Source: Phycisphaerales bacterium (lineage in GTDB: Bacteria > Planctomycetota > Phycisphaerae > Phycisphaerales > SM1A02). From it: a stretch of DNA of 57,947 bases. Where the stretch lies: assembly GCA_009692045.1 (NCBI GenBank), contig SIAA01000010.1, positions 1-57,947 on the forward strand, in the 5' to 3' direction. A program made the translations under genes and the position numbers. The notes beneath the pieces were generated by a model that did not search any database, had not been told where the DNA came from, and worked only from the letters and a program-made list of their open reading frames with translations. Every line of letters starts with the position of its first letter. Position 1 is the stretch's first letter. Positions 38,471 through 55,617 of the stretch are shown piece after piece.

Positions 38471-40093
38471 ATGCCCGACTCCTCATCGCCTGCGCACCAA
38501 GACTCATCGCTGCGCGAGACGATTCAATCGCTAATCGTCGCATTTGTGATGGCGATGGCTTTCCGGGGATTCGTGCTGGAGGGGTTTGAGATTCCTACTG
38601 GATCGATGGGGCCCACACTCATGGGTCGGCACCTACGAATCCACAGCAAGGCTACCGATTACGAGTATCCCGCCGATGCTCAGCCACTCATGGAACTTGC
38701 CAACCGAATATCGATGCGGCAAGCACGCGACATGCCGCGACCTGTGATTGATCCGATGATCAATCAGTCCATGCCGATCGTGGCTGAGAGTGCTCTCGCT
38801 CTGGCCTCGCAGATCCGGCTCGGAGATCGAGTGCTGGTGCTCAAGTATCTCTGGCCCATCACCTCCCCCCAGCGCTGGGATGTGGTGGTGTTTCGCAATC
38901 CCACTGATCCCATCGGGGATTCGCTTTACTACATCAAGCGTCTGGTGGGCATGCCCAGCGAGTCATTCGCCTTTGCCGATGGTGATGTGTTCACGGGTGC
39001 GCTGGGCGCAAGCCCCTCGCAGATGACGGTGCAGCGCAAGCCGCTGTATGTCCAGAACGCGGTATGGCAGAGTGTCTATGACAGCGACTTTCAGCCCATA
39101 GAAGTGACGCGTCTGGAAGAGGCTACGAGGCGTCCGTGGGAGGGTGCGCCCTGGAAGGGTGCCGACTGGGACATGCGCGGCAAGCGCGTCTGGTCGCACG
39201 ATTCCTCTGCCACCACCCATCTGGTTTGGGACAATTCCATAATCCCCATAGATGATTTTTGCAGCTACAACATTTACCGCGCCGACTCGGTGCTGTTCCC
39301 GGTGAGCGACCTCCGTGTTGCTGCCAGCGTCGAGGCCAATGAGCCGAGCGAGCTGCGCACCTCGCTCGAGTTGCAAGCGCGGAGCAGAAAGTTCTCATTC
39401 ACCATCGGCGATGGGCAACTTCGTCTCGCCATCGCGCAGCAGGAGACGAATGTTCTGGAGCAGGAGGTCGAAGTGGCACTCACGCTTCCCGGTGACGGTC
39501 CGGTGTCACTGGAGTTCTGGCATGTGGATCAGCGCCTCAGTGCCTGGGTGAATGGCCGTGAAGTTGCCGCGCTCGAGTATGACCTCGGTGGCCCCGGTGC
39601 GCGTATTCAGGCGGCCCACTACGGTCGCACCCTCGAGCAGTACCTAGCAAACCCTGTCACGCAGCGACCTACGCCGCCCCAGCTTGATTGGAGCTTCAGC
39701 GGAACTCCTGTTCGCCTTCGCCATGTGCGAGTCGACCGCGATCTCTACTACCGACCCGCGTTTCTAAATCCCAGCCCTCAGGAGCAGTTCGTCGGTAACG
39801 GAGCACCACTAACCGGTTTGGCATTCGGGATGAATGTGACCGATCCAGCTCAACTGGATCAGCGAGATCATGTGATGTGCGGTGACAACTCGGGGGCAAG
39901 TCGAGACTCACGCTTGTGGGGGCGTCCTCATCTGCTACTGAAGGATGAACTCAACTTCGAGAAGCCCTTCCTCGTGCCGAGCGAACTGATAATCGGCAAG
40001 GCGTGGAGTGTTTACTTCCCGGCGCCGCTGCCTATCTGGCCCGGCGGTGCCACCATCATTCCCGACTTTGGGCGCCTGCGCTTTATTCGTTAG
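38471..40093 (+). CDS. lepB: Signal peptidase I with a large insertion
   Basis: A 540-residue type I signal peptidase. The membrane anchor is at about 18-36. The catalytic Ser45 is in PTGSMGPTL, the general base Lys156 in YYIKRLVGMPSE, and the last conserved box is GDNSGASRDSRLWG (471-484). Between boxes D and E about 270 residues are inserted (roughly 185-455), much of it beta-rich with LEFWHVDQRLSAWVNGREV, which resembles a concanavalin/LamG-type sandwich. There is also a longer loop between Ser45 and Lys156 than in E. coli. The insert faces the periplasm and may bind substrate or cell wall. It ends 11 bases inside the convergent exported-protein gene. Confidence 0.9.
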   Translation: MPDSSSPAHQDSSLRETIQSLIVAFVMAMAFRGFVLEGFEIPTGSMGPTLMGRHLRIHSKATDYEYPADAQPLMELANRISMRQARDMPRPVIDPMINQSMPIVAESALALASQIRLGDRVLVLKYLWPITSPQRWDVVVFRNPTDPIGDSLYYIKRLVGMPSESFAFADGDVFTGALGASPSQMTVQRKPLYVQNAVWQSVYDSDFQPIEVTRLEEATRRPWEGAPWKGADWDMRGKRVWSHDSSATTHLVWDNSIIPIDDFCSYNIYRADSVLFPVSDLRVAASVEANEPSELRTSLELQARSRKFSFTIGDGQLRLAIAQQETNVLEQEVEVALTLPGDGPVSLEFWHVDQRLSAWVNGREVAALEYDLGGPGARIQAAHYGRTLEQYLANPVTQRPTPPQLDWSFSGTPVRLRHVRVDRDLYYRPAFLNPSPQEQFVGNGAPLTGLAFGMNVTDPAQLDQRDHVMCGDNSGASRDSRLWGRPHLLLKDELNFEKPFLVPSELIIGKAWSVYFPAPLPIWPGGATIIPDFGRLRFIR

Positions 40094-42289: not shown

Positions 42290-43240
42290 ATGCGACTGAG
42301 CAGGTATTCCGCCGACGCGCTGCTGCTGCTCGCGGCATTCATCTGGGGCGTCGGATTCGTGGCGCAGCGGGTGGCGATGGACTCCATGGCCGAGACTGGA
42401 GCCAAGGTGGCACTGCCGCTTCTGTTCACCGGCATTCGCTACAGTTTGGGGGCCATGTTGGTGGGCGCGCTCTTGCTCCTGATGAAGGCAAGGGAGAAGC
42501 GAGTTACGCCGCGCGAACCAAACTCCAGCCCACCGCCGACAAACTCACGGCGGATACTGTGGATCGGGGGACTGGCTGCAGGGTCGATCATGTTTCTAGG
42601 AAGTGCTCTCCAGCAGATTGGACTCGTCACCACGACTGCTGGAAACGCCGGTTTCATCACTGGCCTCTATGTCATCTTCGTGCCCTTCTTATGCGCGCTA
42701 TTGGGACAGCGTCTCGGATGGCATGTGTGGGTTGCCGCGAGTGCTGCCCTGATTGGGCTCTATCTGCTCAGTGTGGTGGGCAAACCTCATATCAATACCG
42801 GTGACATCTGGGTTCTTGCGTGCGCCGTTGTCTGGTCCGCTCATGTGATTGTCATCGGCTGGGCAGCACCTCGTGTCAATCCTCTTGAGCTGGCGCTGAT
42901 TCAGATGGTGATCACCGGGGTACTCGGACTCATCTTCGCATTCGCGTTGGAACCCGTCACTTTGGAGGCTGCTCTGGCTGCACCGGGGAGCATCCTCTTC
43001 AGTGCTGTGTTTGCCGTGGCCATTGCCTTCACCCTGCAGGTGGTGGGACAAGCTGCAGCACCACCAGCGCACGCTGCCATCTTGATGAGTCTCGAAAGCG
43101 TATTCGCTGCTGCTTCGGGCTGGGCCTGCCTCGACGAGCACCTTGGTGTCATGCAACTGATCGGCAGCGCCCTCATGCTCGGAGGCGCGATCTTGGTGCA
43201 AACTCAGCCACTCACTGAATCCCGCCGGTCCCCTTCTTGA
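42290..43240 (+). CDS. DMT-family (EamA) transporter
   Basis: A 316-residue membrane protein with about ten helices arranged as two EamA repeats. The start LLLLAAFIWGVGFVAQRVAMDSM and the later GSIMFLGSALQQIGL, TTAGNAGFITGLYVIFVPFL segments are typical. The second repeat ends with PPAHAAILMSLESVFAAASGWACLDEHLG, a strong family signature. Substrates of this family are metabolites, amino acids or nucleotide-sugar-like compounds and cannot be chosen here. The last 29 bases overlap the end of the convergent ExbD-like gene. Confidence 0.88.
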   Translation: MRLSRYSADALLLLAAFIWGVGFVAQRVAMDSMAETGAKVALPLLFTGIRYSLGAMLVGALLLLMKAREKRVTPREPNSSPPPTNSRRILWIGGLAAGSIMFLGSALQQIGLVTTTAGNAGFITGLYVIFVPFLCALLGQRLGWHVWVAASAALIGLYLLSVVGKPHINTGDIWVLACAVVWSAHVIVIGWAAPRVNPLELALIQMVITGVLGLIFAFALEPVTLEAALAAPGSILFSAVFAVAIAFTLQVVGQAAAPPAHAAILMSLESVFAAASGWACLDEHLGVMQLIGSALMLGGAILVQTQPLTESRRSPS

Positions 43241-44051
43241 GCGCTGCTCCGCTGGCGACCGGAAGCGGGTTGAGTGCATATCCAAGATCGCTTAGCAGCG
43301 TCTCCAGATGCTTGTACTCCCCGAATGAGTCCTGCCATACTCCAATGTTCAGCCTGATGGCGCGCGGATCGGCATCAGGAACTAGCGCCTTGAAGGCGAG
43401 TTCCGCTGTCCGTGCGTCGCCTACGACCATTCCCTTTCCGGGTGGTGGTGATACCTGCTCGGATGTCGAGTCAATGATCGGGCGGGACAATCTGCCGCCA
43501 GACAGAAGAAGCAGGACGGGCTTGCGACCTTTGGTATCAGGCTGCAGTCTGCTAAGCCTTACAAACTGGGAAGCGGGAGGAAGATGGCTCAGCCGCAACT
43601 GGGCCTCTTGAAGTGCTGTTTGCTCCTGCTCCAGCTTGAGCTTTACTTCAGTCGCCGCAGCTTTCGCCACCAGCAGTTCCTGCTGCCTGTTTCGTAGCTC
43701 CTCCAATACTTTGACTCGCTGCGCTTGCTGTTGGGCCATCTGCGCCCAGGCATCACTCCATCTCTTCACGAGTGACGCATCGCCCACTGGAGGCATGGCC
43801 GCCAACACTTTGGCTAACTCCTCAACTTGCCGCTCAAGCGCCAGTGCTTCTCGGGCGAGGCGCTCCACCTCATTGATGGTGTGTTCGTTAGTTGTCTCGG
43901 TGGAAGTTTGCGGCGGCTTGGCAAACACCACGATCACCAACATCAGAAACATGATCACTCCCAGGGTGTTGCACAGAGCATCCAGGAATAACTCCAGCGC
44001 CTCGCTGGGATTGAGAACGCGCTTGCGACCACCGCTGACTCTTCGTCTCAC
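43212..44051 (-). CDS. Single-pass ExbD/MotB-like protein 2 (last gene of the GTPase operon)
   Basis: A 279-residue protein that starts at a GTG with a GTGA overlap. A basic N-terminus (RRRVSGGRKR) is followed by one membrane helix at about 22-44 (LFLDALCNTLGVIMFLMLVIVVFA). Asp24 lies at the start of the helix, as in the ion-conducting B subunits ExbD, TolR and MotB. Next comes a coiled coil of about 100 residues, then a C-terminal domain that includes VWQDSFGEYKHLETLLSDLGYAL. The upstream gene product has the same plan and a similar C-terminal segment, so the two are paralogs. There is no recognisable OmpA-type peptidoglycan-binding motif. I infer that it pairs with the TolQ-like protein. 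Confidence 0.7.
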   Translation of the reverse strand: MRRRVSGGRKRVLNPSEALELFLDALCNTLGVIMFLMLVIVVFAKPPQTSTETTNEHTINEVERLAREALALERQVEELAKVLAAMPPVGDASLVKRWSDAWAQMAQQQAQRVKVLEELRNRQQELLVAKAAATEVKLKLEQEQTALQEAQLRLSHLPPASQFVRLSRLQPDTKGRKPVLLLLSGGRLSRPIIDSTSEQVSPPPGKGMVVGDARTAELAFKALVPDADPRAIRLNIGVWQDSFGEYKHLETLLSDLGYALNPLPVASGAALKKGTGGIQ

Positions 44052-44851
44052 GGCGACACCTCAAAGAAGGAGTCGTTGCCCACCCACAACTGCCAACCGA
44101 CCGCAAAACCGCGCGATGCCACCGCTCTACGCAGGTCATCGAACTGCGCGACCGCATCGTCGTGAACTATGAACAATGCATAGGAGTCGGCGGCGGTGCG
44201 GCTCTTGAACGCTTCCCCTAGGCCTTTCAGTGCGTCCGCGGTGGCAGACTCACCTCTCTGCCTGGGCACACCGCCGGCGTCGACACTGCCCCAGACAACT
44301 CGCAAGTGGTCGATCTCGATCATGACCGCTTCGAGCGGATCGGTCTCGCCCTGGTGCCGGCGCACGCGCGACTTCAACTGCGATTCGGTGTGCCGCTTGG
44401 TGACATCACTCCACTGGGTGATCGTCACCTCCGTAAGTGCTTTCGCCTCCTTAGTAGCAGCCTTGACCTGCGCCGTCTCTGACTCAAGAGTCTGCAACCG
44501 CTTCTCTATGGCGGCCAACTCGGTGCTCTCTCGGGCAACTCTGGCCTCGACACGGTCGACCTCTTCGACAGAGATGCTGGGCTGCGACTTGCGCCTCTCG
44601 ACCTCCTCCATCATCTGGGTGAGGCGAGCCGAGGCATCCTCCGCTCGCCGGCGCGACTCAGCAATGGCGTCGATCTGTGATTGATCCGGAGTTGCAGCGA
44701 CGACGCGATTCGTAATCTCTTCAATCTTGCTGGAGAGTGGATCGAGAGCGAGAAGCAGGGTCACAAGAATCATGATGCCCGTCACGCAGGCAATGATGTC
44801 CTGAAACGAGAAGAAGGACATCGGACTATCGGTTGGTTTCCTGCGCGCCAT
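44048..44851 (-). CDS. Single-pass ExbD/MotB-like protein 1
   Basis: A 267-residue protein with one membrane helix at about 16-38 (FQDIIACVTGIMILVTLLLAL) and Asp18 at its start, the place of the ion-carrying Asp in ExbD and MotB. A long coiled coil follows (about 55-150, rich in Glu, Arg and Lys). The C-terminal domain has YALFIVHDDAVAQFDDLRRA and resembles that of the downstream gene product. The helix pattern F-x-D-x6-G-x-M is shared by the two proteins. The gap to the upstream channel gene is 43 bases, the only gap in the operon, and it overlaps the next gene by four bases. Confidence 0.7.
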   Translation of the reverse strand: MARRKPTDSPMSFFSFQDIIACVTGIMILVTLLLALDPLSSKIEEITNRVVAATPDQSQIDAIAESRRRAEDASARLTQMMEEVERRKSQPSISVEEVDRVEARVARESTELAAIEKRLQTLESETAQVKAATKEAKALTEVTITQWSDVTKRHTESQLKSRVRRHQGETDPLEAVMIEIDHLRVVWGSVDAGGVPRQRGESATADALKGLGEAFKSRTAADSYALFIVHDDAVAQFDDLRRAVASRGFAVGWQLWVGNDSFFEVSP

Positions 44852-44894
44852 GACTTTATCTGCCTGCGAGGATCTGCGACTCGTGCGGGGTGAT

Positions 44895-45779
44895 TTACCA
44901 GTCGGTCAGCTTGAGACGGCTGATGACATGGTCGTTGCAGAAGTCAGACATGCCATCGAGCAGCGCTTCCTCGCCTTGATACACCATGGTCATCAACAAC
45001 TGAACGCCCACAGCAGCGACGAGCGCCACTAGTGTTGTCTCGAATGCTGTGGCAAGTCCGGCAATAACGGGGGTGAGTTTCTCCCTGATGTCTGTAACAG
45101 CTTCTGCCGCCGCGACGACCCCCGTCGTATCGGGATTGGCCATGAGAACTCCCTCAAAGTTGCCGATGGCATGACCTAGTCCAACAACGGTGCCAATGAA
45201 ACCGAGAACGGGAATGGTCCAGATGAGGGCGCGGATACCGGTGTAGGAACTGTCAATGGCGCTGGTGTCCGAGGAAGCCTGGGAGTCGATTACCGCTCCC
45301 ACATCCTTCACCTCTCCGATGTTCTTGAGGTTAGAGAGGGCGAGATGCAGGCGATTGAAGAGCAGGAACTCCCGCGGGCGCGCCACTAGACGCCGGATTC
45401 CTGCCAGTACTTCTGGTGCCGTGGCGGGAGAGAGCACCCAATCGCTGCGCCGAGGAAACACCTCCTCCACTTTGAGTGCCTTCATCTGAATGCGGGTCTT
45501 GGTCCACTTGGCGAGCAGGATGAACAGGCACCAGTAGGTGAGTAGGGCACAGGCCCAGTTGGTCCAGCAGCGATTCATCATGTTGAACATGTACCCATCA
45601 CTCCAGATACTGAGCACAAAGAAAGTGGCTACGGTGAGTATCACAGAGATGCCGAACCACAGTCCACCTCGCGCTCGGGTGAATCCGCCACTGCGACACC
45701 CCATCATGCATTCAAGGTCACCCGTCGCCGAATCAAGGGTGCCTGACAACTCCTCTGAACCAACAGCTTTTGAGCTCAT
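44895..45779 (-). CDS. MotA/TolQ/ExbB-family proton channel protein
   Basis: From the ATG at 45777-45779 (ATGA overlap with the upstream gene) the protein has 294 residues; a longer frame would run into that gene. The first two membrane helices are at about 38-60 and 69-91. The last two carry the family pattern: IPVLGFIGTVVGLGHAIG, then LTPVIAGLATAFETTLVALVAAVGVQLLM. A cytoplasmic loop of about 110 residues lies between the pairs. In the family five copies surround two B-type helices and use the ion gradient for work. It is followed by two possible B-type partners in the same operon. Confidence 0.88.
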   Translation of the reverse strand: MSSKAVGSEELSGTLDSATGDLECMMGCRSGGFTRARGGLWFGISVILTVATFFVLSIWSDGYMFNMMNRCWTNWACALLTYWCLFILLAKWTKTRIQMKALKVEEVFPRRSDWVLSPATAPEVLAGIRRLVARPREFLLFNRLHLALSNLKNIGEVKDVGAVIDSQASSDTSAIDSSYTGIRALIWTIPVLGFIGTVVGLGHAIGNFEGVLMANPDTTGVVAAAEAVTDIREKLTPVIAGLATAFETTLVALVAAVGVQLLMTMVYQGEEALLDGMSDFCNDHVISRLKLTDW

Positions 45780-46891
45780 GGCGATTCCTCCTGGGGCGAA
45801 TGATCGGTCTCCGATTCTGAATCCACTGACCAAGTCTCGTGAAGTGCCAGGCCCGTGAGCATGGTGAAGCAGATACCAGCCACTTGCCACTTGGTTGCAT
45901 CCAGCACGGCAAAGCGGTCGCCGCCTAGAGCACACTCATGACTGCCGACAAGAAGCGCGGCAGCGAGAGCCAACACTACGCCAACAATGGCGAACCAGGC
46001 GGCTGATTGGATCAGGCCCTTGCCGGCTCGATGTACGCAGAGTCCGATGGTGAGGGCACTTGTTGCCGCCACGAACGCCGAAGTGATGCTGAGAACGCCG
46101 CTGTTCATAGCCGTGAGCGCACTGATCGGAACAATCACCGCAACTAGAGCGCACAGCAGATAGGTACACCACTGGGGCACCATGTTCGTGCGATGCCAGA
46201 TCGCACAGAGCATCGCCACTGCGCCAGCGAGCATCGTTAGGCCCGAGCCGATGACAAGCCAGGCGCGCGCCGGGCCAAGCCCCGCCGCAATGCTGGAGAG
46301 TTGAACTGCTGCCGTGGCGGCGATGGCAATGGTGATGGCACGAGCACGAGACTCGTGGACGGCTAGCGCCACAGCCACCGTGCAAGTCATGCAGGCGATC
46401 AGCAACAACATGATCGAGTAAGGAAGAGCGTTACCGCCCTCTGCAACCTGCCACCACCAACGCACTCCCTCCGCGCCTCTGCCCACGGGAAGGAGAACAC
46501 AGAGACCAATCACCAGCACGCAGGCAATATCCACAGCGACGATCGACACTCGCAGCCCCCCTACCACCATCGTGTTTGCTCGTGCTGTCGCGGCGGCGCT
46601 CCACCTACTGCCCCGTGGGACTGCAGCCTCAAAGTCGGACTCGGCCAGCGGCGGATCGTCAGGGGATTGAAGCGCACTGCTGGGAGCACTGTGCTCTCTT
46701 GAGCCTTTTGCGTCCGACCAGAGCTCGCGCACCGCACTTGCGTCAACCCACGAAACTCCGTCGGCACTGACAGAGTGAATACGGGACAACTCCCCTCGCT
46801 TCGCCATCACACGCAACTGCTCCAAAGTGTATGGCCCCTGAACTAATGCACCCAATCTCATCCGCCACGAGCGTGATGCCTTGTCACTCAT
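45776..46891 (-). CDS. GYF_2-domain multipass membrane protein
   Basis: From the ATG at 46889-46891 (ATGA overlap with the upstream gene) the protein has 371 residues. Residues about 10-55 match the GYF_2 (DUF4339) pattern: ALVQGPYTLEQLRVMAKRGELS, then DGVSWVDA. Such small domains bind peptides or partner proteins in the cytoplasm. An acidic linker follows, then seven or eight hydrophobic helices with no recognisable transport signature (for example VAVDIACVLVIGLCVLLPVG and FAIVGVVLALAAALLV). It lies between the 962-residue protein and the TolQ-like gene and may connect the motor to the rest. Confidence 0.72.
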   Translation of the reverse strand: MSDKASRSWRMRLGALVQGPYTLEQLRVMAKRGELSRIHSVSADGVSWVDASAVRELWSDAKGSREHSAPSSALQSPDDPPLAESDFEAAVPRGSRWSAAATARANTMVVGGLRVSIVAVDIACVLVIGLCVLLPVGRGAEGVRWWWQVAEGGNALPYSIMLLLIACMTCTVAVALAVHESRARAITIAIAATAAVQLSSIAAGLGPARAWLVIGSGLTMLAGAVAMLCAIWHRTNMVPQWCTYLLCALVAVIVPISALTAMNSGVLSITSAFVAATSALTIGLCVHRAGKGLIQSAAWFAIVGVVLALAAALLVGSHECALGGDRFAVLDATKWQVAGICFTMLTGLALHETWSVDSESETDHSPQEESP

Positions 46892-49776
46892 GGGACCTGC
46901 CCCATCCAGATTGGTGTTCCCGGAGGCAGCCCACTGGCGCCGCTGCTTAGCTCGATGGCACCGCTCGAGCCGACCTTTCCCACTTGGTGGAATACGCATT
47001 GGCCACTCGCATCCAGATCAATGCTCCAGAGAAGTTCGCCAGATAGAAGCGAACCCCGAGCGGGCACCGCAGCGGGGCCGCCAGGTCCATCGAGCATCAT
47101 CCCCACGGGCTTTAGCGCCAGTTGCAGCACTCTGGCAGCATCAGCGTTGCCGCGATCGCGCCCGCGAGCGATCGCCGAAGTGTCGAGTGCCGAGAGCAGA
47201 GCTGCTTCCAGCTCTTTGGTACCCGGCCGTTTGGCAAACTCGCTTTCAGCAACCCAGTCGATACCCTCTGCCTCAGCCGTTTGCCAGCGCTCCACTGCTT
47301 GGGTGAGGGCGGGCGACAAGAGAGGCGCATCTGCTGCAATAGCTTCACACAGTCCGATCAAGAGATAAGTTCGAATGGCTGGATCAACTCGCTTCGCGTT
47401 CTGAATCAGTTGTAGCGCGCGCAATGCGTTGGTGATGCTCGGGTCGGCAGAGAGCCCCTTGACCAGGGGCAACAAGGTGCTGCACAACTCCGCCTGAGGG
47501 GACTGCCCCTCAAACACGACAGCCTTGGCGGCGATTCTCTCGAACCTGGTCTTCAGGTCATTGGGCGAAGTGAACACTTCATAAATGCGGATTCGCTCCC
47601 CATCAATCAGTGAGTCTGAAACGAGTCTGTGAGGATCGAAGTAGAACGATCGCCCATCCACCAACCGCACCTGATGGAAGCTCATGGGCGGCCACTGGTT
47701 CAGTGTCAAAGTCAGGGCTTGGACCCACGACGATCCCTCGACAAGAGAGGTTCGATATGCCTGAACTCCCAGCACGAGAGGCGAGAGGGCTGCCGTCTTT
47801 AAGAATTCGTCAAGTCGACCAAGGCGCTGTGACACATCTCGTGACGAATCCGGTCGGGACTCGAGCCTCAGTTGCTCAGCAAGGGCCGACCACCGTGCCA
47901 CGGTTTCCCAGCAGGATTGCATTCCCGCTGCTACCAAGAAGTCGGCAGACAGGAGGGAGTCCTCGTGTTTCTGGGCAAATGCTCGCAGTCGCTCCGCGAA
48001 GCGCGTGGGGTCAACGGTCGCTTGGGCGCAGGCGCGCAGATCATCGCTCAGGACTAGATCCTTGCTAGCCGATTCGCGCGCCAACTCCACATCCCCTCGA
48101 ATCTGCTTCAGTCGCTGGGTGAGGCTGGCCGCCGCCGCGCGCGCGCCGGAAGAGATACCGGGGCGCCTCTCCAACTCGCTCAGTTGCAGGTCAACCTCAT
48201 CGACGCGCATCATCGCATCCGATCCGAGTGGGTCGAGTTGATTCAATCCGACCACGGCTTCGCCAATGATGGTGAGTGCATCGGCAAACTTTGAGTCGCG
48301 CTCGGCTTGTCTAGTGGCTTGGGCGGCGGTGTACTTCGCTTCCCAGTCCGCCGTTTCTGCCAGCTCCTCTTCGGTGCTGGCAATGTCGGCAGCGGATCGC
48401 AATCGATCGGCTCGCGCCCCCTCTGAATCGGGAGTTCCAGCCGACTCCATGAGGGAGCGGAAGGATGCTGCCCGCTCCGTCTCCGCCGTTACCGCCATGA
48501 CGAGGGCCGACTCTGCTACTGCCAGCACCTCGCTCCCAGGATCCAATACAGCTCCCTCATCCAAGAGGCTTTGCGCTCTATCGAGGTACCCAGTGGCGAT
48601 GTTCATGGTCACCGCTGCCGCGATCTCTGTTGACTTTGCCGTTCGCAGGACGCTTTGCACAGCCACGAACCCCGCCGCTGCCATCAGCGCCAGCACCAGC
48701 AGCGACGCGCCTCCTATGGCAACGCGTCGACGCCGCTTGGCCATGCGAATCTCCCCTATGCGCGCCTGCGCCAACTCCTGTAAATCATGGGGACATCCAT
48801 CCCGATTCCCATCGACAGCACGAAGTCCCTGCACCAGCGCCTCCATGCTCGAGTCTGACTTCTCCAGCAGGCGGGAGAGATTGTCGACACGCGCGCGCTC
48901 GCTTTGACGGTGCGCCACCTCTCTCTCGCGCGCCTCCAGCCAGTCAACTACCAGTTTCACATTTTCCGTGGCTGCCGCTGACACCTTTACCGGAGCGTCC
49001 GACATGAACCACTCCAGCACGCGCCACTCTGCCACGCGAGCCGATGCGGCCGCGACATCCTCGGCCATGTAATCGGCGTAGAGAAGTTCTGACACCTTTT
49101 GGGCTCGCGCTGCCGCGGATTCTGCCGCATCCGCCCACAGTCGTTTTCCCATTTTGTGGGCGACGGCGGCGGCGTCAGGATGAGTCCAATCGCCAGCGGC
49201 CAGCTCGGTGCAAATGGCCCACGCGTCGTCACGGAAGCTCTCTGTCTTCATGTAGATATCAAACTCCGCCACCATCTCCTGCAGAGCAGCCTCCTCGAAC
49301 GCCAGTACATCCTGCCGCCACGCAGCGTTGGTTGGGTCGCGCGCCACCAATGAACGCAGGGTTTTCAGCCGAACTCGCGCGGGGGCCAAAGCCAGATTCT
49401 GTCTTCGATAGCGCGTGAGTGTGGCGCGCATTGCTTCGATCTGTTGCAAAGACGCATTGAGCTCAGAAACCACCTCGGGCGCCAGCCGTGCTGGGGCTGG
49501 CAGTGAGTTGACACCACAGAACTTGGCCCAACTGGCTAAGAGCTCGCTGGAGAGGGCCACTGCCAATTCGGGAAAGTCTCGCAAACTCTGAATCTCCCAC
49601 TCCGCCTCTACTCTCTGGCCGCGGCGCGTCATCTCCACGCATCGAGTGAGCACGGCGTGAACCTCTCTTGAGGTTGCCGCAACCGAAGTTGCCACTCGGT
49701 TGACTTCCTCGCGATCCCTGATCACGCCCTCTAAGACAAGGCGCACCGAGTCGAGTAGTTCTGCCGCTCGTCCCAT
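46888..49776 (-). CDS. Large single-pass membrane protein of unknown function, 962 residues
   Basis: I do not recognise the family. The N-terminal 345 residues are helical and, because KRRRR lies just before the membrane helix at about 352-376, they should face the cytoplasm. The following 585 residues would face outward and are also mostly helical, with Ala/Glu/Arg-rich coiled-coil-like stretches. The last 60 residues look like a beta-rich domain (LLWSIDLDASGQCVFHQVGKV). Its start shares one base with the upstream stop (TAATG). The size and the central anchor suggest a scaffold that spans from the cytoplasm to the envelope. Confidence 0.7.
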   Translation of the reverse strand: MGRAAELLDSVRLVLEGVIRDREEVNRVATSVAATSREVHAVLTRCVEMTRRGQRVEAEWEIQSLRDFPELAVALSSELLASWAKFCGVNSLPAPARLAPEVVSELNASLQQIEAMRATLTRYRRQNLALAPARVRLKTLRSLVARDPTNAAWRQDVLAFEEAALQEMVAEFDIYMKTESFRDDAWAICTELAAGDWTHPDAAAVAHKMGKRLWADAAESAAARAQKVSELLYADYMAEDVAAASARVAEWRVLEWFMSDAPVKVSAAATENVKLVVDWLEAREREVAHRQSERARVDNLSRLLEKSDSSMEALVQGLRAVDGNRDGCPHDLQELAQARIGEIRMAKRRRRVAIGGASLLVLALMAAAGFVAVQSVLRTAKSTEIAAAVTMNIATGYLDRAQSLLDEGAVLDPGSEVLAVAESALVMAVTAETERAASFRSLMESAGTPDSEGARADRLRSAADIASTEEELAETADWEAKYTAAQATRQAERDSKFADALTIIGEAVVGLNQLDPLGSDAMMRVDEVDLQLSELERRPGISSGARAAAASLTQRLKQIRGDVELARESASKDLVLSDDLRACAQATVDPTRFAERLRAFAQKHEDSLLSADFLVAAGMQSCWETVARWSALAEQLRLESRPDSSRDVSQRLGRLDEFLKTAALSPLVLGVQAYRTSLVEGSSWVQALTLTLNQWPPMSFHQVRLVDGRSFYFDPHRLVSDSLIDGERIRIYEVFTSPNDLKTRFERIAAKAVVFEGQSPQAELCSTLLPLVKGLSADPSITNALRALQLIQNAKRVDPAIRTYLLIGLCEAIAADAPLLSPALTQAVERWQTAEAEGIDWVAESEFAKRPGTKELEAALLSALDTSAIARGRDRGNADAARVLQLALKPVGMMLDGPGGPAAVPARGSLLSGELLWSIDLDASGQCVFHQVGKVGSSGAIELSSGASGLPPGTPIWMGQVP

Positions 49777-50747
49777 TAGTTTTCCTGTACCGATAGCTGT
49801 ATAGAGGCGCGAATGACGGAGGTCGCCTCATCGGTGAGGTCTATCTTTGCCACCAATCCAGGTAATAGCGGGGGCGAGGCGCGTGAGGCCAACTCCTTCT
49901 CGAGAGCACTCAGTCTTGCCAGATCAGACTCGAGAATTTTCTTCTCGGTTTCGCTTGCTCCCTTCAGCATTCGCTCAGTCTGGCGCAGATCGCTGCGCAC
50001 GGACTTGAGTTCATCCGTTGCCTCGCTGTGAACCCTGACCATCATTCCGCGCCTCGCGCCAAGGTAGGAGACCGCCACTTGCCATCCCGCCGGATCGACC
50101 AGAACTACCGAAGTGGGAGAACTGGTTAGGACTGTCCATTGATCGCTCGCAGTAGACGAAACCATAATCGAGTCGGACAGTGTGGGAAATGGGTGGTTCA
50201 TCACCTCGCCCGGCTTGACACTCGCCGACACCATCTCGCACGGCGGTTCCACTCGAATAACTCTCCCCTTGCCGCAGTCAAGCTCGATGACAGCGCCACT
50301 GAGGAACTCGTCCAATGCCGGGAGTGGCTCCGCGGCGCTGCCCTCAAAGAATGTTCCCCACTTGAAGCGCAACTCATTGCCGCTCCATGACAACTCTCCG
50401 AGCTCGATGGGCTTCGCCTTGGGGATGTCAACAACGAATGAAATGGCATTCGCCTTTTGCTTCAGGTGAAAGGCTGCACTACTAGGAGCGGGCTGGAACT
50501 TCACGGCAGTGATCGCCGACGGAGCACTGGCGATCAGTTCGGTTGATGGCCGCACCTTGCCGTAGCCATCAACTTTTCTTGCGAAGGCTGTGAGGCTTCT
50601 GGCCATTACTTCAGACCCCTCGGGAGGCGGGGAAGCGGGACTGCCATTCTGATTGGCAGCGCCCGTCGCTGATGGTGTTACGACCTGATGCGCCGCGCCG
50701 AGTAGGCACGCCCACATAATCGTCATTATGACAACCGGCATTCTCAC
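49776..50747 (-). CDS. Exported protein of unknown function, 323 residues
   Basis: I do not recognise the family. A hydrophobic N-terminus (VVIMTIMWACLLGAAHQ, about 4-20) looks like a signal peptide. Next is a Pro/Ser/Ala-rich linker, a beta-rich domain with an Ig-like look, and a coiled coil at about 238-285 (ELKSVRSDLRQTERMLKGAS). The last 35 residues return to beta strands. It resembles the C-terminal half of the upstream protein in style (beta domains that flank a coiled coil). It begins with GTG, in a GTGA overlap with the upstream gene, and shares one base with the downstream one. Confidence 0.65.
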   Translation of the reverse strand: MRMPVVIMTIMWACLLGAAHQVVTPSATGAANQNGSPASPPPEGSEVMARSLTAFARKVDGYGKVRPSTELIASAPSAITAVKFQPAPSSAAFHLKQKANAISFVVDIPKAKPIELGELSWSGNELRFKWGTFFEGSAAEPLPALDEFLSGAVIELDCGKGRVIRVEPPCEMVSASVKPGEVMNHPFPTLSDSIMVSSTASDQWTVLTSSPTSVVLVDPAGWQVAVSYLGARRGMMVRVHSEATDELKSVRSDLRQTERMLKGASETEKKILESDLARLSALEKELASRASPPLLPGLVAKIDLTDEATSVIRASIQLSVQEN

Positions 50748-53254
50748 TTTGCTGGCACCTCGCCGTAAATTTCCAACAAGGGCACTCCATGATCAGTAGA
50801 GACTGTTGCTCGAAAGCGGCTGATGGCAGTCAGCGCTTGGATTGTCAGTTCTGATTTACCAAGAGGACTGTCGGCGAGCTTCTGGTCTACTTGTCGGAGC
50901 GCGCTCGTCTCTTTCTCCAGTTCCGACTTCAGCGCGGTCAGCGCCTGATTCAAAGCATCGCGCCGCTGTTCCACATTGCCGCCGAAGTCCTTCACGAGGT
51001 TGGGAAGTCGGCGGGTCATTATCGCCTTCGATGAGTTGGCCAACAGCCCACGCAGGTTCTCAAGGATTTCTCTCTCGCGCGCGCTCGGTGCGACCCCGCC
51101 GGTTCGAGCAAGTTCGTTTTCAATACTCTGCTCCGCTTGGAGGATGGCCACATCCGAGCTCAATCCCCCGACTGTTGCTTTCAGATGTGCCAGCTCAGTC
51201 TGCAATGAGCTCGTCTGCGCGGCAGACGCGGGGGTGAACTTCGCTGTAATCGCCTTGCCGCTTGCCTGGAAACCGAGGACCACTTGCCCCATCTCGGATC
51301 CTTCAGACTCAATGACCAACTCATGAGAGTCACCAGGCTTCAACACCCGTGGCTCCCCCTCACCCATCTTCACGGTTACCGACTTGAGCGCGGCTGCGAT
51401 TGGCTTCACCACCTGAGCCGCTCCACTAAGGTTGGCCCTCTTCGGCGATCCGAACCGCACCCAAGATGCTTGACCACTCTTGTCAGTAACCTTAAATCCA
51501 ATGAGGCTGGCGAGATCGCGGATCCCTTCTCCATCTTTGAGCGATAATTCTTTGAGTTTTTCTTGGCACACTTGAGTGAGCTTCTCGACGCTCCACTTCC
51601 AGACAACAGAGTCACTCTCAGTCTCCCACTCACCGAGCGTCTCCCCAAACACCTTCAGCTTGGGACCGTCAACCACGAGCTCTACCTTCGCCGTATCGGG
51701 AATCAGAATCGCGGCGCTGCTGCCCTCCATGATCAGTTGTTCGGGCAGTGGTTCGAACTTGAAATTCTTAGTACTCAGCGCGGGCACCTCGATGCTGGCC
51801 CACACTCGCGGAGCATTCGACAACGGCGCCGCCGCGGCGGCGGCAACCGATCTCTCAGCAGCGACCCGCGCCTTGGTAGCCGCCATCACCTGTTCCTGAA
51901 GCTCTTTGGACTCCGACTCCAGATCCGCCACTTGCCCTCTAAGCGTGTCGATCTCGCCTTGAAGCGTGTCCGATTGAGTCAGAGCCGCGCTCAGTTTCCC
52001 CTTGAGCTCCTCGATATCTCTCCTCTGATCCCTGGTGTCGGCAGTGACAGGCAAAGGCACCGCGGCGGCGACCTCGGATACGACTGATGGCGATTCCTGC
52101 TTCACTTGTGCAGCTATCTCCGCTGTTGCCAAGCGCGACTTTAGGAGCGCGATCTCCGATTGTGCCATCAGCCAAAGCACTGCTGTCAATACCAGTCCTA
52201 TTGTCACCACCACCAGACCGGCGAGCAGCACCGCCTGACTCTTTCTAGCCATCCTGCCGATGGAGGTCGGTGTCTCCGAGCGACATTCACGACTTGTGTT
52301 CACGCCTCTGGTGGTATCGCGAGAAGCCGCATGAGCAGTTCTCTCGCCGTTGCCCTCTACCACTGGCTCGACTTCGTATGAGCCACTATCCGATTGCCGT
52401 GTTTCGTTCCCGCCGCCAAACAGGAAACTGCTGGAGCCATCCGCGCGACCCTCGTCCTGCTTTGCGGGCACGAACACATGGCCGGCGCGCGCGGCGTTGA
52501 TGGAGGCATTGGTTCGGTGGAGAGGATGCTTAGCGCAGAGGTCAATCACCTGTGCCGAGCGTTGCGCTGCCTTTGCCGCCTCGCTCCCCTCCAAACAAAA
52601 CCGCCAAGAGCATCGCAGTCCCGCCACCGGCTGCATGAAGTAGGAAGAGAAGGTGACTCGCCATCTTGCCTCAGCTGGCAATAGCGAAAGTGCTTCGTCC
52701 ACAAGGGCAAGAACCGGCGTCCCCATGGGATAGATCACATTGACGGGACGCGTGGCGTCGAGCAGGAAGAATCCGACCAGCACCCCGGCCCATCCAGCGT
52801 CACCTGAAACCTGCTCCCATGTTTCGCAACTCGCCGAAGTGCGGTTGCCTGTTATCGGCACGACTCGCTCTTTCTCGATGTGGGTCGCCTCCCCCTGCCA
52901 CCCGTCAGACATGGTCCCCGATTGCAACATCATCCAGGCGGCTCCCTCGCTCACCAACTCATCGGGCTTGAGCACTACATAGTGTGCGTGCTTGTTTGAT
53001 CGCTGGGTGTGATCGGGCGACGCGCCGCGCACCGCGGCGAGTATGTGCCGCTCGACTCCCGCGAACTCGACGATCCAGTGCGAGAAGGCGACCGGAGATT
53101 CGCACATCCCCTCGGGCGATCTGTATCCGCTGAGGGGCTCCAGCTTGCTGATCAATGAGGTGGGAAATCCACGCGTAGCCGCGACCGTGCAAAATCCGCT
53201 GGACCCGGGGGCCAATCCCCTCGTGGCGGATGTGTAGTACATCTCAATCGCCAT
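50744..53254 (-). CDS. GAP1-type (GTPase-associated protein 1) membrane protein
   Basis: From the ATG at 53252-53254, which overlaps the GTPase gene by 11 bases, the protein has 836 residues. The first 235 match the GAP1 N-terminal pattern known from GTPase-linked loci: EMYYTSATRGLAPGSSGFCT, then LEPLSGYRS, DHTQRSNKHAHYVVL, and PAEARWRVTFSSYFMQ. A polar linker follows, then one membrane helix at about 342-364 and a coiled coil of some 60-80 residues. The outer part has two beta-like domains and a second coiled coil. In the published survey of such loci, GAP1 proteins pair with the double-GTPase family; here it pairs with the GTPase gene just upstream. Assignment is by pattern memory. Confidence 0.68.
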   Translation of the reverse strand: MAIEMYYTSATRGLAPGSSGFCTVAATRGFPTSLISKLEPLSGYRSPEGMCESPVAFSHWIVEFAGVERHILAAVRGASPDHTQRSNKHAHYVVLKPDELVSEGAAWMMLQSGTMSDGWQGEATHIEKERVVPITGNRTSASCETWEQVSGDAGWAGVLVGFFLLDATRPVNVIYPMGTPVLALVDEALSLLPAEARWRVTFSSYFMQPVAGLRCSWRFCLEGSEAAKAAQRSAQVIDLCAKHPLHRTNASINAARAGHVFVPAKQDEGRADGSSSFLFGGGNETRQSDSGSYEVEPVVEGNGERTAHAASRDTTRGVNTSRECRSETPTSIGRMARKSQAVLLAGLVVVTIGLVLTAVLWLMAQSEIALLKSRLATAEIAAQVKQESPSVVSEVAAAVPLPVTADTRDQRRDIEELKGKLSAALTQSDTLQGEIDTLRGQVADLESESKELQEQVMAATKARVAAERSVAAAAAAPLSNAPRVWASIEVPALSTKNFKFEPLPEQLIMEGSSAAILIPDTAKVELVVDGPKLKVFGETLGEWETESDSVVWKWSVEKLTQVCQEKLKELSLKDGEGIRDLASLIGFKVTDKSGQASWVRFGSPKRANLSGAAQVVKPIAAALKSVTVKMGEGEPRVLKPGDSHELVIESEGSEMGQVVLGFQASGKAITAKFTPASAAQTSSLQTELAHLKATVGGLSSDVAILQAEQSIENELARTGGVAPSAREREILENLRGLLANSSKAIMTRRLPNLVKDFGGNVEQRRDALNQALTALKSELEKETSALRQVDQKLADSPLGKSELTIQALTAISRFRATVSTDHGVPLLEIYGEVPAK

Positions 53255-54560
53255 GTGATTCCCCAGAGTCAACTTCATCCAAGGCAGGTGGTTCGGCAGC
53301 GCGGCCCCTCGTTGACAGTGTGCCGACTAGCGATCGAGACCAACGCGCAAACGCATAGGTGAATGGAACATCAATCCAGCGCGGAAGCACCTGCTGGGGT
53401 CTCACGCGCAGCAGGCCGTTGGCTGGATCAATCGTGGGCGCGCATCCCAAGGCGCTCACGGGAATGAACTCGACTCGACTGAATGCCGCTTCGGCTGCGG
53501 CGACAAACTCGGGAACCGTGCCACTCATGAGTGTGTGTAGTTTGGCACTCACCCGTTCAATCCGCGCGGTGTCCATCACGGCAACACCACCTGCCGCGCC
53601 TGGCGCGTAGGGGTCGCTGCGCAGATCCTCATCGGGGATCAGCTGCTCCCAAGCATCACTCTTGGACAAGATGACGAGGAGTGGCTGGGTCAACTTTTGC
53701 CCTGCGCTCATGCCCGAGTAGGAACGCACTCGATCAATCATCTCGGAGAGAACGATGTCCTGTCGGCTTGATCTCTCCCCCGGCCGCAACTGCGGATCTA
53801 GAGCCGTCTGGGAGAGCGTGCGGCGAAACCGCACATCCTGGGTGGGATCGAACACAAACAGGATCACTCTTGAGCGCGCCAGATGTTGTGTCCCCGGCGC
53901 GGTCGCCGAGTCGGCGCCTGGAAGAAAGTGCTCTCCCGCGTTGTCATACAGACAGAGCACCTGGCGCAACTCGTCCTTCGCGGCGCCGTTGGGATGGGCG
54001 TCTGTTGGAGTCATAGTGAACAGAAATGGGTGCGGTAGGAGAGTTGGTTGCCCGGGATCGAACTGAACAGAGTTGTACTGAAGGCCCTGCATCTCAGTCT
54101 TCTCGATGTGGACAAACTCGTGGGGATTCTCCCGTAGAAACAGGCGCTCCTCATTGGCATTGACCACACTGTTGATCAGAGGCTCAGAGTCAGTGAACGA
54201 GAGACCAAACTTGGATGGCATGGTCTGGCGCATGCGCCAGCAGGCGCAGGTGATTATGTAACTCTTGCCGCTCGCCGGTGATCCGACCATGGAGAAGATC
54301 TTGGGACGGCACTCCAGCAGCACCATGGGGAGAGGGAGATGGCAGCGCGGACAGGCCACGCGCTGGCAACGGGACCCCTTCTCGTCTATCGCCTCCCCGC
54401 TGGGGCTGAAGCGCGAGGGAAGAAACCGGCGCTGATCATCGCTGGTGAGAAGTTGGTCGCCGCGCAGGTCTTGGTGACTTGAGATCCAAAGAATTTCCTC
54501 CGGCCGGAAACGATGCCAGCAATGAGGGCAGAGCGGTTTGTTGATTAGAGGTCGCCGCAC
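53244..54560 (-). CDS. Zinc-ribbon P-loop GTPase (double-GTPase-like)
   Basis: From the GTG at 54558-54560 the protein has 438 residues; the frame continues to 54884 but that part is Pro-rich, antisense to the divergent vWA gene and unlike the rest. A zinc ribbon is formed by CPHC (11-14) and CPRC (70-73). The G domain has the P-loop GSPASGKS (93-100), a Walker B-like LYDNAGE (204-210) in the place of DxxG, the VILFVFDP strand, SKSD (299-302) in the place of NKxD, and PVSALG for G5. This matches the DO-GTPase group found with GAP1. The start has no strong ribosome binding site. It is the first gene of the eight-gene operon. Confidence 0.75.
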   Translation of the reverse strand: MRRPLINKPLCPHCWHRFRPEEILWISSHQDLRGDQLLTSDDQRRFLPSRFSPSGEAIDEKGSRCQRVACPRCHLPLPMVLLECRPKIFSMVGSPASGKSYIITCACWRMRQTMPSKFGLSFTDSEPLINSVVNANEERLFLRENPHEFVHIEKTEMQGLQYNSVQFDPGQPTLLPHPFLFTMTPTDAHPNGAAKDELRQVLCLYDNAGEHFLPGADSATAPGTQHLARSRVILFVFDPTQDVRFRRTLSQTALDPQLRPGERSSRQDIVLSEMIDRVRSYSGMSAGQKLTQPLLVILSKSDAWEQLIPDEDLRSDPYAPGAAGGVAVMDTARIERVSAKLHTLMSGTVPEFVAAAEAAFSRVEFIPVSALGCAPTIDPANGLLRVRPQQVLPRWIDVPFTYAFARWSRSLVGTLSTRGRAAEPPALDEVDSGESHGD

Positions 54561-54630
54561 GGTTTTGTGCCTACTCGCAGAGGCAACTGTATATAGTAGT
54601 AGGCGTCTATTCGAACCCAACGGTACCGGC
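54561..54630. promoter_or_regulatory. Divergent promoter region of the GTPase operon and the vWA gene
   Basis: Seventy bases separate the two chosen start codons. TATATA lies at 54590-54595 and can serve as a -10-like core in either direction. On the minus strand TTCGAA lies about 16 bases upstream of the element. The exact promoters are not certain. Confidence 0.35.
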
Positions 54631-55617
54631 GTGCTAACAACCTGCACACAACCATTTCGTGATCGTTCGCTTGGTGGAGCGGCGGTCGCATGCGCACTTC
54701 TGATTGGCATCCTGATTTGGGCCATGCTCGCCCCGGTGGCAGGAGCGGGTGGTACGGGTCGTGGAGGCATTGGTAGTGGCAGCGGCCCTGGGACTGGGGA
54801 TGGCGGCGGGACGGGAATATCGGGCGCAGGTCCCGGAGCCGGACTAAAAGGCACCGGCCCGGGGGCGGTACCTGATGGAGACACAGATGTACTTCGAGGA
54901 ACACCAGATGGCGTGGATCCCCAGAGTGATACTCAACCATTGAATGAACTGGCGGGAGCCACGGTGGTGATCCCGGAGTTTGGTTTCGATGTCGATGAAG
55001 TGCCGCCTCCAGTTACGCCTCCGACCACGGCTTCGACCGCGCCATTCGGAACCGATCCCAATGCCAAGACGCGCGAAGGAGTGAGTGGTGCTGCAGGCGG
55101 CGCTGAGTTCATGGGAGTTCGATCAAAGGGCCAGAAGTTCGTCTATGTATTTGACATCTCAGGAAGCATGGCCACAGACAACCGAATCATCCATGCACAG
55201 TTGGAGTTGCAGCGGTCGATTGACCGACTCGGTCCAGATACCGAGTTCTTCATCATTCTGTTTGAGTCAGGCGCGCACCCCATGCTCAACCCAACACTGG
55301 TGCGTGCCAATAAGGGCAACAAGGCCAAGTACATCGCCTGGGTCAAGGAGCAAGTTCCTCAGGGAGGCACGAGACCAGAAGCAGCAATGGCGCAAGCACT
55401 CGCCATGAAACCAGATGCGATTTTTCTTATGACTGATGGCGAGTTCGAGGATATCGCCGCTGTAGATGCGGCAATCAATAGTGGCAATTCCAGCCGCGAA
55501 GTGATGATTCACGCCGTGGCGTTTCATTCCCAAGATGGTGAAGCGCAGCTACAAGCAATCGCGGCGAAGAACAACGGTCAATACCGCTATGTTCCGCCGC
55601 CTAGTGCTGTGCCGTGA
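54631..55617 (+). CDS. Membrane-anchored von Willebrand A domain protein
   Basis: From the GTG at 54631 the protein has 328 residues; a longer frame from a TTG at 54538 would overlap the GTPase gene. One membrane helix is at about 15-37. A Gly-rich, then Pro/Thr-rich linker of about 120 residues follows. The vWA domain has a complete metal-ion-dependent adhesion site: DISGSM (175-180), the Thr in GGTRPE and the Asp in LMTDGEFED. No MoxR-type AAA gene is next to it. The domain would lie outside the cytoplasm, and the linker would give it reach. The divergent position suggests it belongs with the operon. Confidence 0.83.
   Translation: MLTTCTQPFRDRSLGGAAVACALLIGILIWAMLAPVAGAGGTGRGGIGSGSGPGTGDGGGTGISGAGPGAGLKGTGPGAVPDGDTDVLRGTPDGVDPQSDTQPLNELAGATVVIPEFGFDVDEVPPPVTPPTTASTAPFGTDPNAKTREGVSGAAGGAEFMGVRSKGQKFVYVFDISGSMATDNRIIHAQLELQRSIDRLGPDTEFFIILFESGAHPMLNPTLVRANKGNKAKYIAWVKEQVPQGGTRPEAAMAQALAMKPDAIFLMTDGEFEDIAAVDAAINSGNSSREVMIHAVAFHSQDGEAQLQAIAAKNNGQYRYVPPPSAVP

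Follow-up and report, generated by a model that had tools for sequence, protein, structure and literature searches.

This report concerns a gene cluster on contig SIAA01000010.1 of a freshwater planctomycete of the order Phycisphaerales (assembly GCA_009692045.1); positions 1 to 57,947 of this contig, counted in nucleotides (nt), are called the window here. Eight genes run on the minus strand from position 54560 down to 43212, in the order GTPase, GAP1, EXP, SCAF, GYF, TolQ, Exb1, and Exb2, and a divergent gene for a von Willebrand factor A (vWA) protein adjoins them (Table 1). We refer to GTPase, GAP1, SCAF, and GYF as the switch half and to TolQ, Exb1, Exb2, and vWA as the motor half. With start codons chosen to fit relatives, GTPase and GAP1 overlap by 11 nt, EXP and SCAF by 1 nt, and GAP1/EXP, SCAF/GYF, GYF/TolQ, and Exb1/Exb2 by 4 nt each; the 43-nt gap between TolQ and Exb1 is the sole non-overlapping junction. 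The probable GTPase start (GTG 54560, in a reading frame that stays open to 54884) lies about 70 nt from that of vWA (GTG 54631), both starts being inferred from relatives. These junctions are exactly those given in an earlier reading of the DNA (hereafter, the original prediction), and its claim that the eight genes are made as one transcription unit is supported by the overlaps; a scan of the locus for promoters and terminators gave no signal exceeding shuffled sequences.

Table 1. Genes of the switch-motor operon and the adjoining vWA gene, with the features that identify them (TM, transmembrane; aa, amino acids).
Gene	Position	Strand	Features
GTPase (DO-GTPase2-type)	53244..54560	-	split N-terminal zinc ribbon CPxC...CPxC; P-loop GSPASGKS; DNAGEH motif
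GAP1	50744..53254	-	GAP1-N2 70.2 bits, GAP1-M 45.3 bits; cut-offs 24 (Pfam)
EXP	49776..50747	-	N-terminal signal or TM (aa 1-19, hydropathy)
SCAF	46888..49776	-	helical-repeat cytosolic half; TM ~aa 359-377; helical + small beta periplasmic half
GYF	45776..46891	-	N-terminal GYF domain, then about 7 TM helices (hydropathy)
TolQ (TolQ/ExbB/MotA-type channel subunit)	44895..45779	-	MotA_ExbB 26 bits, cut-off 22.9 (Pfam)
Exb1 (ExbD/TolR-like axle subunit 1)	44048..44851	-	TM helix with Asp18 (FxFQD); coiled coil; small alpha/beta domain
Exb2 (ExbD/TolR-like axle subunit 2)	43212..44051	-	TM helix with Asp24 (LD..CN..G); coiled coil; C-terminal domain
vWA (divergent)	54631..55617	+	VWA_3 47.7 bits (Pfam); DISGSM in vWA domain; start GTG inferred

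The complete set of GTPase, GAP1, SCAF, TolQ, Exb1, and Exb2, which we call the module, is kept together in 68 distinct loci (counted after the removal of identical TolQs) from the Planctomycetota, Verrucomicrobiota, Lentisphaerota, and Thermodesulfobacteriota. In other words, the two halves are not usually found apart, the outcome that had been set in advance as speaking against a single system. Gene neighbourhoods were surveyed in the genomes of the order Phycisphaerales (n = 201) and then in 80 loci from named genomes. Within the order, GAP1-N2 is present in 34 of the 201 genomes and the module TolQ, at E < 1e-100, in 35, as a single copy in every case (35/35). The median spacing is -4 nt both for GTPase-GAP1 and for Exb1-Exb2, and even in the two loci with a rearranged gene order (L163 and L187) the genes are still together. 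The module is also present in the cultured Victivallis vadensis DSM 14823 and Botrimarina colliarenosi Pla108 (L175 and L173, respectively). In the window genome, the GAP1-N2 match in the operon is the only one in 2.17 Mb, and it adjoins one of the four MotA/ExbB genes, the remaining three of which lie on other contigs. Because this sole match adjoins a MotA/ExbB gene and the arrangement recurs across phyla, the linkage of GTPase and motor is not a matter of chance.

Seen from the motor, 77 loci of the TolQ subfamily (duplicates included) have 8.5 kb or more of upstream sequence, and in 69 of them GTPase and GAP1 precede TolQ on the same strand; this rate is partly built in and biased upward, since module TolQs themselves went into the profile used for the census. 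Two Exb genes follow TolQ in 105 of the 113 loci with room, duplicates again included. The eight other loci of the 77 comprise two with a degraded GTPase and six (L081-L086) of a second TolQ class, with two Exb genes alongside and no GTPase. Members of this class, found at L080-L087, are 470-660 aa long and are accompanied by Exb1/Exb2-like genes, without GTPase, GAP1, or SCAF. Seen from GAP1, SCAF adjoins it in all 41 loci with room and TolQ is present in 31; this rate of about three quarters, which also counts several near relatives, is the fairer of the two, given the origin of the TolQ profile. At L095 and L096, one GTPase is flanked by two GAP1 genes ahead of SCAF-GYF-TolQ.

The history of the module was examined with trees built in FastTree, one per protein for GTPase, TolQ, and SCAF. 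All three require five changes of phylum label, where the minimum is four and the mean for shuffled labels is about 17. Because these separate trees each keep the phyla apart, the unit is old and mostly vertical in descent. When the distance matrices of the six core proteins are compared in pairs, the correlations are 0.60-0.88, with no unrelated control gene in the comparison. A search of 72,556 plasmids and 50,697 phage records yielded no relative of the GTPase. Taken together, the results fit an old, mostly vertical, and often-lost unit rather than a mobile defence cassette.

The catalytic residues are conserved in both the GTPase and the motor, in keeping with the original prediction. In the GTPase, the P-loop is found in 85/85 relatives and DNAGE in 81/85, and CPxC is conserved; the window protein reaches 24.1 bits for DO-GTPase2, under the Pfam cut-off of 27, and 14 of 20 relatives match this family. 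Pfam searches of the nine proteins, as the original prediction had suggested, place the GAP1-N2, GAP1-M, MotA_ExbB, and vWA families above their cut-offs. GYF_2 scores 24.1 bits in the window protein, under its cut-off of 25.8, and 85 bits in the GYF protein of a relative. GAP1 has one TM helix by hydropathy (aa 342-360), following the cytosolic GAP1-N2/GAP1-M region, and its coiled coil and C-terminal region past the helix are probably periplasmic. A TM helix near residue 350, between a large cytosolic part and a large C-terminal part, is common to GAP1 and SCAF. SCAF itself matches no Pfam or PDB family, and a PDB profile search returned coiled-coil noise. Its AlphaFold2 (AF2) model, with a mean predicted local distance difference test (pLDDT) score of 86, consists of helical repeats with small beta domains; since a fold search with it gave only weak helical-repeat matches and no convincing PDB relative, we do not call SCAF a “TPR-like” family. 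EXP, which has no Pfam match, is limited to the long form of the operon, and its family members occur only in close relatives. That EXP might be a duplicate of the C-terminal half of GAP1 was considered and rejected (hhalign probability 7%).

On the motor side, the GFIGT..GL and TT motifs of TolQ are conserved, with the key Thr positions in 68/68 modules. Hydropathy assigns three TM segments to the window TolQ and four to most relatives, so that TolQ may be MotA-like in topology; a PDB profile search with it gave one sub-significant TolQ match (E 0.26). Exb1 and Exb2 each have a single N-terminal helix, whose Asp is invariant in 68/68 modules for either protein, and they are homologous to each other (hhalign 98.8%). 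PDB profile searches with both returned coiled-coil noise. The C-terminal alpha/beta domain in the AF2 model of Exb1 (pLDDT 89.5) scores Z 7.8 against TolR (5by4) and Z 7.3 against ExbD (8pek), with unrelated, RNase-H-like folds reaching Z 9. The putative ExbD-like identity of the two proteins is judged from their place behind TolQ, the unvarying Asp of the TM helix, and their homology to each other; for Exb1 the C-terminal fold adds a feature that is compatible with TolR/ExbD but not diagnostic. The vWA protein has a layout like that of TonB/TolA: a TM helix, a Gly/Pro-rich linker, and the vWA domain. The predicted topology, with the switch parts facing the cytosol and the coiled-coil or arm parts facing the periplasm, agrees with the envelope complex of the original prediction. 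Outside the operon, positions 38471-40093 of the window encode a 540-aa signal-peptidase-like protein that, judged by eye, is apparently much longer than usual and has a large insertion.

We think it reasonably probable that the module is one inherited envelope machine with two halves, an ion-driven motor and a GTPase/GAP1 switch. Linkage, conservation of catalytic residues, topology, and an old common inheritance are computed properties of these loci; beyond them, we infer motor activity, a mixed Exb1/Exb2 axle, control of the motor by the GTPase, and a role of vWA as the arm. The MotA/TolQ-type ring would presumably enclose an axle of Exb1 and Exb2, and a flow of protons (or sodium) would turn or move their Asp-bearing helices. 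The likely output arm is vWA: held in the inner membrane by its single helix, with the Gly/Pro linker as a flexible tether, it could transmit force or displacement across the periplasm. On the switch side, the GTPase with its zinc ribbon and GAP1 with its membrane anchor might respond to a signal from the cytosol or the envelope and, acting via SCAF, which spans the membrane, and the GYF membrane protein, determine when or where the motor works. This scheme predicts that the axle of the motor combines two unlike proteins, both with an Asp in the helix, and the conservation of the switch-motor operon in cultured strains makes GTPase control of an ion-driven motor testable.

The main objections to the two-half machine, besides the upward bias of the TolQ-side census, come from loci in which one half stands without the other and from the motor proteins themselves. 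Six genomes of family f1 (G057, G144, G179, G120, G199, and G018) keep the motor, and all that a genome-wide search for the GTPase family finds in them is the remnant of a zinc ribbon, located at the module; G028 is without any GTPase-family match. All seven keep TolQ, Exb1, Exb2, SCAF, and vWA where the contigs allow a check. Conversely, 10 of the 41 GAP1-SCAF loci have no linked TolQ. Four of these ten are in genomes where another, complete module is present at a different place, G030 and G281 lack any TolQ relative genome-wide at E 1e-10, and the rest of the genomes have distant TolQ relatives only. As for the proteins, none of the ExbD models, PF02472 included, recognises Exb1 or Exb2, and the Exb1 fold fits RNase-H-like domains as well as TolR, so that it is by itself no proof of a TolR/ExbD identity. 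The vWA protein lacks the S-x3-H motor-binding motif of TonB/TolA, with no His in the TM helix of the window protein, and the SHLS motif has no match in any module vWA.

Because the motor is kept where the GTPase is reduced to a zinc ribbon or absent, control by GTP is not universal, and because GAP1-SCAF loci without a linked motor also exist, gating is at most a regulatory layer. The “GTPase-gated, ion-driven envelope complex” put forward in the original prediction is therefore supported in part: the single system stands, and regulation of the motor by the GTPase is plausible. The decay can be seen at L063, L064, L065, L071, and L073 (genera g7 and g23, of the window's family), where the GTPase has been reduced to its zinc ribbon and the motor, SCAF, and vWA are kept; this is a natural loss of the GTPase.

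In one genome (G491), the switch is found with a different partner. At L092:6256-8247, downstream of GTPase-GAP1-SCAF, GYF is fused to a T2SSE-type (type II/IV secretion) ATPase (317 bits), GAP1 and SCAF are both truncated shortly past the TM helix, and TolQ and Exb are missing from the locus. This single example fits a switch able to work with several kinds of envelope motor. It is possible, and we offer the idea only tentatively, that the module represents a new class of envelope machine: a hard-wired switch of GTPase, GAP1, SCAF, and GYF to which different motors can be attached (in most cases a TolQ ring and its axle of two proteins, and in the one genome a type II/IV secretion ATPase fused to the GYF protein), ancient in the Planctomycetes-Verrucomicrobia-Chlamydiae (PVC) group and misfiled as a conflict system. 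More generally, the findings suggest that part of the planctomycete catalogue of GTPase “conflict systems” is an envelope machine.

Among the other explanations, the one that survives best, though still unlikely, is a machine for gliding or surface adhesion on the pattern of Agl-Glt, in which the GTPase would take the place of MglA and TolQ-Exb1-Exb2 that of AglR-AglQ-AglS. GltJ carries zinc-ribbon and GYF domains. Agl of Myxococcus xanthus is similar in layout, with one TolQ, two TolR homologues, and a linked Ras-like GTPase on the cytosolic side (PMC3169522). However, the GTPase family differs, and no Glt homologue was recognised among the operon proteins in general Pfam scans, in which no Agl/Glt profile was compared. 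In addition, the module also occurs in the Lentisphaerota and Thermodesulfobacteriota, groups in which, to our knowledge, gliding is not known.

We consider it improbable that the module is an anti-phage or conflict system, in which the envelope motor would sense attack and the GTPase/GAP1 switch would release an effector, in the manner of Zorya or of the GAP1-N2 systems. A conflict role was indeed proposed for the latter, with their DO-GTPases (PMC7159879). Weak matches to ZorA models occur among the TolQ relatives (in up to 11/18 with E <= 0.01, the best being 4.5e-5), and a ZorB model picks up Exb2 with an E of 7e-4. Against this reading, the ZorA match of the window TolQ itself is sub-significant, with none of the PADLOC models reaching E 0.01, and profile scans of the operon proteins revealed no recognisable effector, whether nuclease or peptidase. 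The defence role suggested in the original prediction is further disfavoured by the vertical inheritance, with trees that follow the phyla, the lack of any plasmid or phage match, and the single motor copy in each of the 35 genomes. Envelope maintenance, transport, or surface motility is likelier than phage defence. Two independent systems in one operon, a GTPase/GAP1/SCAF signalling system and a TolQ/Exb motor co-expressed without physical coupling, would explain why either half occurs without the other, but this is equally improbable in view of the tight packing and overlap of the genes, their persistence over four phyla despite rearranged order, and their correlated divergence.

How does the two-half machine compare with known systems? 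The main text of Kaur et al. 2020 (eLife, PMC7159879) describes GAP1-N2/DO-GTPase systems, including planctomycete versions with a GYF protein and a TM-rich region. As in the window, a zinc-ribbon DO-GTPase lies directly upstream of GAP1-N2/GAP1-M with a TM helix, and a GYF protein is present; that main text makes no mention of TolQ, ExbD, MotA, or a proton channel. The FNIII protein said there to typify GAP1-N2 systems was not found in the window operon, where FNIII repeats are absent from all proteins (Pfam E <= 1), as they are from the SCAF relatives. The motor half resembles the vWA force-transducer motors of the PVC group and other bacteria (Mol Biol Evol 2025, PMC12204202), in which a vWA protein of TonB-like layout, with a TM helix and linker, stands beside a TolQ-like channel and two unlike TolR-like genes. 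No GTPase is mentioned for that family, which has a TonB-type SHLS motif, whereas the window vWA lacks SHLS. The window genome also has two simpler vWA-TolQ-ExbD-ExbD loci, L200 (contig C70) and L201 (contig C41), with canonical short TolQ and ExbD that match Pfam and vWA helices that contain S-x3-H; by sequence, these are likely to be the motors of PMC12204202. With such SHLS-like loci in the same genome, the assignment of the window module to that family was dropped; its vWA being without the motif, the module has the look of a divergent sister to which the GAP1 switch has been joined. At L088 and L089, TolQ stands beside pairs of vWA proteins whose TM helix bears an Asp (LDCICCGFG), similar to the “TPH-vWA” pairs of PMC12204202.

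Zorya likewise combines a MotA/TolQ-type channel with an Asp-helix partner acting at the envelope; unlike it, the window operon has no ZorC, ZorD, or ZorE, uses two axle proteins, and has GTPase/GAP1 instead. The nearest working analogue is Agl-Glt, with a GTPase on the cytosolic side and a large multi-protein envelope scaffold; its GTPase is of another family, no homology to its components was recognised, and its genes are scattered in Myxococcus, whereas those described here form a single operon. The original prediction knew of no description of both parts in one operon, and this stands for the combination, of which no description was found in the open-access literature (subscription journals and preprints were outside the search), but not for the parts. 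Each half, or a relative of each, has been described separately, and their joining as switch and motor is new as far as found.

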